Shown here: one piece after another, positions 14,737-16,291 of the stretch
Layout: the number at the start of each line of letters is the position of its first letter
Numbering within the stretch: position 1 is the first letter of the stretch
Assembly: GCF_003640665.1 (NCBI RefSeq)
Contig: NZ_QQXL01000001.1
Span: forward strand, 248,001-312,000
DNA length: 64,000 nucleotides
Direction of reading: 5' to 3'
Origin: Galactobacter caseinivorans
Lineage (GTDB): Bacteria > Actinomycetota > Actinomycetes > Actinomycetales > Micrococcaceae
Made by a program: the position numbers and the translations under genes
The notes under the pieces: model-generated
What the model was told of the DNA's origin: nothing
Seen by the model: only the letters and a program-made list of their open reading frames with translations
The model's database searches: none

Positions 14737-15600
14737 TCAGTTTGTCGCGGCCGGGCTCTGCAGCAGCCGGCGCAGACGGATGGCGCCCATGGAGGTGGTG
14801 GCGCGCAGTTCGGCGGTGGACTCCGAGGCGGGGCCGGGGGTGGCCTGCAATTCGTTAAAGACGGAGCCTGCCTTGCTGTGGGCGTCCACCCAGACGGCGA
14901 CCCCAGGGGAGACGGCGATGTCCACCTCACCCATGGACGTGGCGGCGTCGAGGCGCCCGCTCTCCACCCGGTCCACGCGGACCGCTCCGAGGGAGGTGCG
15001 CAGGCGCGCCTCGCCTGAGAGCACGCCAAGGGTGATGGAGCCGTTGGAGGTCTTGGCGGAGAGGGGGCTGCCGGTGCGGCCCAGATTCAGCGCGCCGTTG
15101 GAGCTCTTGATGGTGGTGCGCCCGCCGGAGGCACCCAGCTGCACCTCCCCGGAGGAGGTGGTGAGCTCCGCCTCGCCCTCAACGGTGCCAACAAAGACGG
15201 GCCCGTTGGAGGTGGTGGCCTTGAGCGTGAGCGCCCGGTCCACGGCGATGGAGCCGTTGGAGCTGTGCATGCGGGCCTGCCCCACCGGGCCATCCACCCG
15301 CACGGATCCGTTACCGGTGCGGCATTCCACGGGGGTGCCCTGTGGCACCTCCACGGTGATGACGGCCGTGCCCAGGTTGAACCCAAAGAGGCCCAGGGTG
15401 GGCGCGTAGATGCTCACGGCATCCTTGCTGCCCTCCACGCTGATGCGCTCTGCGGTGCGCTGGTCAATGCCGCGGCCGGGGTGCGCGGGCGCTACCTGGA
15501 CGCTGATGCGTCCGGGCTCCGCGCTGGCCTTGATGTTGATGAGAGCGGACGGCACGGCGATCACGAGCCGCGCGTCCGGTGCCACGGTGAAGTCCTGCAT
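14737..15600 (-). CDS. DUF4097-family beta-strand repeat protein
   Basis: A 287-residue protein built of short beta-strand repeats ending in SNG, TSNG or TSMG. Examples are MHSSNGSIAVD, TTSNGPVFVG, IKSSNGALNLG, KTSNGSITLG and TSMGEVDIAV, spaced about 20 residues apart from roughly residue 100 to the end. This is the toastrack/DUF4097 adhesin-like fold. No signal peptide or membrane segment is visible, so it is probably cytosolic. A ribosome site GAAAGG precedes ATG 15600. It lies 40 bp downstream of the ribbon-helix-helix gene on the same strand and is almost certainly co-transcribed with it. The pairing recurs in Actinobacteria but its function is not established. Confidence 0.85.
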   Translation of the reverse strand: MQDFTVAPDARLVIAVPSALINIKASAEPGRISVQVAPAHPGRGIDQRTAERISVEGSKDAVSIYAPTLGLFGFNLGTAVITVEVPQGTPVECRTGNGSVRVDGPVGQARMHSSNGSIAVDRALTLKATTSNGPVFVGTVEGEAELTTSSGEVQLGASGGRTTIKSSNGALNLGRTGSPLSAKTSNGSITLGVLSGEARLRTSLGAVRVDRVESGRLDAATSMGEVDIAVSPGVAVWVDAHSKAGSVFNELQATPGPASESTAELRATTSMGAIRLRRLLQSPAATN

Positions 15601-15640: not shown

Positions 15641-16219
15641 TCAGTTCATCCAGCCGGTGATGCGACGGCCGTCGTTGCGCACGCCCGGCGCGCGCGGGGG
15701 TGCCGGGGGAGTGGGCGGCAGGGGCGGGGTGGCCACGGCGGTGGCGACGGTGCGCACCAGCCACGCGTTGACGGACTGCCCGGCGGCGGCGGCAGCGGCC
15801 TCCGCCTGGGACTTCAGCGACTCCGGCAGGCGCAGGTTGATGCGCGCGGTTTCCCCGTGGTCCGCCTCCAGGGCATCCGCTATGCCCGACGCCGCGGGGT
15901 ACAGCCCCGCTGCTGCCTCGCCGGAACGCGGGGTGGGCTGCGGGGCCGCCTCCGCTTCCGCTTCGGTGTCCGCGGTGGGCGTGAGCCCTGAGGCGGTGAG
16001 CCGGGGCTCGCCGCCGGAAAGTGCCAGGCTGACGGAGCCGGGGGCCAGGTCGGCGCTGAGTTCATCCGCGGCGGCGGCGAGGGCGTTGATCAGGGTGAGG
16101 CGCAGCGAGGAGTCCAGGGCAAGGGCCAGCCGTTCCGCGTGCTCTGCCGCGGCAGAATCCTCCGGGACGGCTGCGGCCAGGTCGCGCTGGGTGGCGGAAA
16201 CAAAGCGATCGAGATCCAT
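15641..16219 (-). CDS. HicB-like ribbon-helix-helix DNA-binding protein
   Basis: A 192-residue protein with a C-terminal ribbon-helix-helix (RINLRLPESLKSQAEAAAAAAG, then SVNAWLVRTVATAVA), the fold of Arc/HicB-type regulators. The N-terminal half (about residues 1-70) is a helical Ala-rich region, and the middle is an acidic Pro/Ala linker. Databases often label such proteins HicB-family antitoxin, but no HicA toxin is adjacent; the downstream partner is a beta-repeat protein. The start codon overlaps the first of a phased array of TGGCACCA boxes, strongly suggesting autoregulation. The leaderless promoter TTGACG-17-CACAGT fixes the ATG at 16219. Confidence 0.82.
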   Translation of the reverse strand: MDLDRFVSATQRDLAAAVPEDSAAAEHAERLALALDSSLRLTLINALAAAADELSADLAPGSVSLALSGGEPRLTASGLTPTADTEAEAEAAPQPTPRSGEAAAGLYPAASGIADALEADHGETARINLRLPESLKSQAEAAAAAAGQSVNAWLVRTVATAVATPPLPPTPPAPPRAPGVRNDGRRITGWMN

Positions 16220-16291
16220 GGCACCACTGTGGCACCATCATGGTGTCACGTCAAGCAAAAGTGGCACCACAGTGGCACCACAGTGGCGCCA
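16219..16291 (-). promoter_or_regulatory. Promoter and phased operator array of the ribbon-helix-helix operon
   Basis: TGGCACCA-type octamers start at 16219, 16230, 16241 (inverted variant TGGTGTCA), 16262, 16273 and 16284 (TGGCGCCA), giving steps of 11, 11, 21, 11 and 11 bp. On the minus strand the array encloses TTGACG (16249-16254), a 17-bp spacer and CACAGT (16226-16231), which ends 6 bases before the ATG at 16219. Boxes therefore cover the -10, the spacer, the start codon and upstream DNA. The geometry fits cooperative binding of ribbon-helix-helix dimers on one face of the helix. Binding is inferred, not shown. Confidence 0.8.

Follow-up and report, generated by a model that had tools for sequence, protein, structure and literature searches.

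Phased boxes at the start of an RHH-Toastrack operon

The 64,000-nucleotide stretch of Galactobacter caseinivorans DNA analysed here (the window) carries on its minus strand an operon which opens with a gene for a ribbon-helix-helix (RHH) protein, a presumed repressor of 192 aa (15641..16219), followed 40 nt downstream by a gene for a Toastrack (DUF4097) protein (14737..15600). The subject of this analysis is a ladder of six short boxes at the start of the operon, a candidate operator for the RHH protein. Boxes matching TGRYRYCA begin at 16219, 16230, 16241, 16262, 16273 and 16284 (steps of 11, 11, 21, 11 and 11), reading TGGCACCA at 16219, 16230, 16262 and 16273, TGGTGTCA at 16241 and TGGCGCCA at 16284, so that the coordinates, the phase of about 11 bp and the single skipped turn given in the first-pass annotation are all confirmed. 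The consensus is self-complementary and all six boxes match it, which means that no orientation can be assigned to them; the box at 16284 is the only perfect palindrome. On the minus strand, counted from the RHH start codon, the three promoter-proximal boxes lie at offsets -7 (TGGTGCCA, 16219..16226, its last base being the A of the ATG), -18 (TGGTGCCA, 16230..16237) and -29 (TGACACCA, 16241..16248), and the three upstream boxes at -50 (TGGTGCCA, 16262..16269), -61 (TGGTGCCA, 16273..16280) and -72 (TGGCGCCA, 16284..16291). The array spans the ATG and the predicted -10 and -35 elements and reaches up to 16291, inside the 107-bp gap before the upstream gene; the sequence thus bears out the earlier description of boxes running from the start codon back through the -10, the spacer and upstream DNA.

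The window contains 25 TGRYRYCA boxes in total against a mean of 17.0 expected under a first-order Markov model, and the longest chain of boxes in helical phase is six, compared with one (190 simulations) or two (10 simulations) in 200 simulated windows. The six-box phased array is far beyond chance. Exact pairs of the form TGRYRYCA-N3-TGRYRYCA occur five times in the genome of this organism, four of them at this array and the fifth (L048) within a long open frame.

The RHH domain of the first protein covers residues 123-163 (15731..15853), with R126 and R130 invariant in 33 homologues and N128 as a variable reading residue, and by this signature the protein belongs to the RHH DNA-binding proteins. 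Pfam returned a single family above cutoff, HicB, which aligns to residues 126-157 with 26.2 bits (cutoff 21). Structure comparison with VIA-align gave a best Z of 4.8 over 46 residues, the rows being mostly RHH proteins, and Foldseek gave weak E-values (best 0.3); the nearest solved RHH folds include Arc and AtaR/KacA, and a PDB sequence search gave no useful match. The conserved N-terminal region (residues 1-77, 15989..16219) is modelled as two helices and a beta hairpin, for which structure comparison matched only common helical arrangements and gave no evidence of a new fold. A C-terminal G-W motif (such as TGWVR), conserved in most aligned homologues, lies outside the RHH fold and may bind the Toastrack partner. 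That partner, described in the first-pass annotation as a beta-strand-repeat protein, proved by Pfam (DUF4097, 32.1 bits, cutoff 22.9) and by its model to be a Toastrack protein of putative role: the model is a confident beta-helix (mean pLDDT 96.2) matching 4qrk and 4opw, both of which are named as Toastrack structures in the accessible part of PMC11237479.

Conservation of the array and its promoter

A protein search of 39 genomes, including that of G. caseinivorans, found the RHH gene in ten, and in the upstream DNA of all ten loci an exact box stands at two or more of the positions -29, -18 and -7; of the 13 loci returned by this search, two pieces of genes already counted (L013, L015) and one weak match (L017) were excluded from the upstream comparison. 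The homologue in genome G003, which is of the window's genus, and that of Galactobacter valiniphilus (L154) have equal BLAST scores against the RHH protein of the window. Of 394 sampled genomes of the class, 160 were matched by the RHH profile (E up to 0.001). From the profile matches listed, 120 homologues with upstream DNA were drawn; they were found and ranked by protein, with a profile partly derived from genes which had been located via the boxes, and the sample left out G000, G014, G028 and G036, five members of genus g81, and matches that were weaker or split. None of the 120 homologues lacks an exact core box (-29/-30, -18/-19 or -7), and three core places are filled in 45, two in 65 and one in 10. 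The individual counts are 95/120 at -29/-30, 105/120 at -18/-19 and 75/120 at -7, and the background rate of exact boxes is 0.0036 per position (-150 to -86) against 85/120 at -18. When 16 of the weaker or omitted matches were checked, 15 of these also had core boxes, giving a total of 135/136. The first-pass annotation had made its proposal depend on finding the same repeats upstream of homologous operons, and there they were found.

Further upstream, boxes group near -51, -62, -72 and -83, and at least one is present in 66/120 homologues; the clusters corresponding to the window boxes at -50, -61 and -72 fall at -53 to -49, -63 to -60 and -74 to -70, respectively. Adjacent boxes are 11 bp apart in 148/260 cases, and taken together the distances between boxes are best fitted by a period of 10.75 bp (R 0.90). 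The homologous operators form a natural series of one to five exact boxes in which the cooperation of RHH proteins along DNA could be studied.

The predicted promoter is interwoven with the boxes. The -10 hexamer CACAGT (16226..16231) consists of the CA ending box -18, the 3-bp linker and the first T of box -7, and thus shares letters with both boxes, while the -35 element TTGACG (16249..16254) fills the skipped helical turn, which has no box because the -35 sits there. Both features recur in the 120 homologues, with xAxxxT at -12 to -7 in 100 and TTG at -35/-36 in 112, and in all 120 the stretch from -48 to -32 is free of exact box starts; one-mismatch boxes at -35 (17/120) and -34 (15/120) overlap the -35 word. 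Start codons are ATG in 119 and GTG in one, and a Shine-Dalgarno-like word precedes the RHH gene in only 1/120, compared with 88/119 for the next gene. According to the accessible text of PMC3160421, a TANNNT motif about 12 bp before the start marks bacterial leaderless genes, in which actinobacteria are rich. Promoter geometry, the rarity of Shine-Dalgarno words and this leaderless signal together suggest that transcription begins at the A of the ATG, and the RHH mRNA is therefore probably leaderless. By-eye inspection for a divergent plus-strand promoter over the upstream boxes found no -35-like word at a fitting distance.

The array was also searched for by DNA alone, the pattern being a triple of boxes in steps of 11 bp that ends in ATG. 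This pattern matched 45 of the 394 genomes (22/138 genera), and a reversed control matched none; all 45 genomes fall among the 160 with a protein match (lists compared by reading). Translations of the 30 pattern loci fetched showed an open reading frame (ORF) of the family at the pattern's ATG in all 30, one being truncated by the contig end. Of 59 listed pattern places, with some arrays listed once for each strand, 58 are at the RHH gene or its operator, the exception being G386:C7. Among 120 listed of the at least 120 named pattern loci, 109 pass a loose RHH regular expression at the ATG (in one of these, L160, the frame continues into masked sequence), and a further five have the right N-terminus on an ORF which runs off the stretch. 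Family resemblance is confined to the N-terminus at L059 and L113, the RHH homologue at L157 is divergent from the array, and L146 has a partial homologue about 2 kb away. The array is almost exclusive to the RHH gene, whose relatives across the actinobacteria are preceded by the same ladder.

Two side observations concern the distribution of the array. In two Klenkia loci (L075, L162) the array ATG opens a short ORF with family-like first residues, with a homologue beginning 151 nt further on. Records whose names place them outside the class of the window carry the array too, seven metagenome-assembled genomes (MAGs) and one isolate: four Dormiibacterota MAGs (L078, L126, L134, L158), two Acidimicrobiaceae MAGs (L080, L157), a Thermoleophilia MAG (L082) and the isolate Solirubrobacter soli (L115).

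Probable recognition of the boxes by the RHH protein

The residue between the invariant R126 and R130 is Asn, Ser or Thr in 234/234 proteins, and it covaries with the half-sites of the boxes: TGG accompanies Asn, and TGA accompanies Ser and Thr. In the first set of proteins the mean fraction of TGG half-sites was 0.83 for Asn (45 proteins), 0.33 for Ser (26) and 0.21 for Thr (57), and in a second, named set it was 0.80 (31), 0.37 (26) and 0.34 (49), respectively; the sets partly overlap, seven named proteins having an identical counterpart in the first. A strict motif expression lost 10/120 proteins, and a wider one left out 15/249, of which 12 were short or truncated. Control box positions 4 and 5 showed no comparable rise, and base composition is not the cause, since the central box positions of the Asn group are no richer in G+C. 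On a tree of 129 rows, two of them with a wrongly read residue, parsimony had the reading residue changing seven times, with weak branch support; as the tree offered only one well-supported independent pair, family blocks and permutations were used instead. Asn members had the higher TGG fraction in all mixed family blocks, 3/3 in the first set and 6/6 in the second (9/9 overall, the blocks being named by two systems and possibly overlapping), and within-family permutations reached the observed mean difference in 0/10000 cases in either set. This covariation is the best evidence that the RHH protein itself reads the boxes, and the link between residue 128 and the half-site fits a dimeric beta ribbon lying in the DNA major groove. 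It also amounts to a putative one-residue recognition code (Asn for TGG, Ser or Thr for TGA) and hence to a testable prediction.

From these comparisons we consider that the boxes are very probably an operator to which the RHH protein binds, repressing its own RHH-Toastrack operon. RHH dimers would insert their beta ribbon into the 8-bp TGRYRYCA boxes (in the window mostly TGGYRCCA), and the 11-bp repeat would place neighbouring dimers on one face of the helix, where they would be able to touch. The three promoter-proximal boxes would mask the -10 and the start codon together with the spacer, with the -35 replacing one box and more boxes extending upstream in phase. Filled boxes would exclude RNA polymerase from the leaderless promoter, and the RHH protein would thereby keep mRNA levels low for itself and for the Toastrack protein alike, with release probably brought about by the Toastrack partner, a ligand, the N-terminal domain or the C-terminal GW motif under cell-envelope stress. 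The array, its conservation, its near-restriction to the RHH gene, the covariation and the promoter geometry are computed results; in this scheme we infer binding, dimer contact, filament formation, repression, the leaderless start and the inducing signal. The autoregulated system proposed in the first-pass annotation has gained strong comparative support (135/136 homologues, and covariation).

Several observations weigh against autorepression by the RHH protein. The monomer model has both RHH helices but no strand at residues 123-130, which may be expectable in a model lacking the partner chain. One RHH homologue of the 136 (L299, genome G090) has no core box at all. With a cut at 0.6, the recognition code has 5/128 exceptions in the first set (3/45 Asn, 2/83 Ser/Thr) and 14/106 in the second (2/31 Asn, 12/75 Ser/Thr), the mixed Micrococcaceae block has 0.56 against 0.50, and the tree offered the single pair mentioned above. 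Activation instead of repression is possible, but repression is favoured by the position of the boxes across the -10 and the start. Finally, arrays with a -35 precede a cytochrome P450 gene (Pfam p450) at two loci in two genomes, one of them Streptomyces typhae: L291 (the exception G386:C7, at about 1247-1555), where a 41-aa ORF without Pfam match lies between array and P450, and L146 (near 3310, minus strand). The site is therefore not purely autoregulatory, and the regulon is sometimes wider.

These two P450 arrays, together with the failure to find an RHH homologue in the 2.8 kb of L291, are also what speaks for a different cellular regulator as the protein binding the boxes, an explanation which is quite improbable given that the array is found almost solely at the RHH gene and that the reading residue of the RHH protein covaries with the box. 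Antitoxins of the RHH fold commonly autoregulate, and with HicB as the only Pfam match above cutoff the protein could be taken for a HicB-type antitoxin repressing its own toxin-antitoxin operon; this is highly improbable, as the HicB match is limited to residues 126-157, the partner is a Toastrack beta-helix and PADLOC gave no matching model. Membership of HicAB was rejected on the partner gene, the neighbours being DUF4097 and a THUMP-like methyltransferase, with no HicA. The near-palindromic and repeated nature of the boxes would also suit a dispersed repeat, or else a hairpin-forming RNA element within a 5' leader, but with promoter elements that put the transcript start downstream of the boxes and only one array in the genome, the chance of this is close to negligible; a repeated genomic element was rejected on the latter ground.

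A question within autorepression by the RHH protein is how far the bound dimers would extend. The cooperative, filament-like complex suggested in the first-pass annotation is consistent with the phasing of the boxes at 10.75 bp. On the other hand, the boxes may be separate Arc-like pairs, on which two or three dimers sit independently or as dimers of dimers with no extended filament, and we give this slightly better than an even chance; it contests the filament only and is otherwise a form of the same explanation. Conservation is highest in the core boxes and patchy in the upstream ones (42/600 position-slots exact at -53 to -49), 54/120 operators have no exact box at -95 to -49, 30/120 have only two exact boxes and two only one, and Arc and AtaR/KacA are among the nearest solved folds. 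Against this, the upstream boxes hold helical phase across the gap to about -83, which independent sites would not need. At the other extreme, and in our view rather unlikely, the array could form a graded, phased nucleoprotein spiral of up to eight helical turns, read by array length and dismantled by Toastrack, i.e. a chromosomal ParR-like assembly serving as an envelope-stress switch, with a one-residue code repeatedly switched in evolution.

Known systems and genomic context

One of the closest likenesses is to ParR/parC of R1, pB171 and C. perfringens, where, as far as the accessible parts of the sources go, an RHH protein binds direct repeats about one turn apart and represses its own promoter. 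ParR of R1 requires at least two 11-bp repeats, and C. perfringens ParRB uses 8-bp repeats 3 bp apart (PMC9426499, in part), which is the box geometry found here; the R1 parC repeats are split around the promoter (PMC5016525, in part), whereas the present boxes lie across the -10 and reach into the start codon. The present system is also chromosomal and has a Toastrack partner, its sequence relation to ParR being putative. While repeats of 10-11 bp at the promoter of an RHH operon, a trait of ParMRC, are present here, membership of ParMRC was ruled out: DUF4097 follows the RHH gene here and in 106/120 of the loci scanned, there is no ParM-like gene in the operon, and no actin-like family is among 19 listed downstream families. 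RHH dimers of omega (pSM19035) wrap along tandem repeats at overlapping promoters, giving a protein helix on the DNA, and ParR, like omega, assembles with DNA into a helical array, according to the accessible part of PMC5016525. A review (PMC5569661, in part) describes RHH dimers as binding multiple sites cooperatively and oligomerising along DNA. Omega differs from the present system in its heptad repeats and in serving plasmid copy control and partition. Arc of phage P22 binds one operator of two half-sites and reads DNA with the strand residues Gln-Asn-Arg, compared with Arg-Asn/Ser/Thr-Arg here, and AtaR/KacA have toxin partners, whereas the present protein has an extra N-terminal region and the C-terminal GW motif.

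The linkage of RHH and Toastrack genes in Actinobacteria is already in print: the accessible text of PMC11237479 describes an actinobacterial Toastrack operon with an RHH factor in place of GntR and suggests that Toastrack may act as a platform for signalling beneath the membrane. The RHH-Toastrack-ABC transporter operons of Actinobacteria are very probably the same operon family as ours. In the parts accessible, these accounts give gene neighbourhoods, with no mention of an operator, a leaderless promoter or a recognition code; our literature search, with subscription papers mostly outside its coverage, found no description of this operator. A regulator for which no functional study was found in the literature now has a defined candidate operator and a predicted promoter, and the operon offers a direct handle on the effects of Toastrack on actinobacterial transcription.

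With regard to genomic context, the operon consists of two genes in the window and elsewhere appears often to be followed by an ABC transporter. Toastrack (DUF4097) stress operons are marked by the Toastrack beta-helix protein, which is present here, and by linked PspA, PspC, LiaF or ABC transporter genes. Among the window and 119 other loci scanned, the downstream protein is DUF4097 in 106/120, and as downstream proteins were chosen by a crude longest-ORF rule, some of the 14 others may be wrong frames. A pair of ABC-ATPase motifs (regular expression) was found within 2.6 kb in 33/81 named loci with enough sequence. The operon in the window is flanked by the THUMP-like methyltransferase gene upstream and a glutamate-cysteine ligase-like gene after the Toastrack gene, and as PADLOC models for defence systems matched neither the RHH nor the Toastrack protein, a role in defence was rejected. 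A Streptomyces antibiotic cluster contains a 177-aa protein of unknown function followed by a DUF4097 protein and a P450 (PMC9866976, in part), and our guess is that this 177-aa protein is an RHH protein of the same kind.
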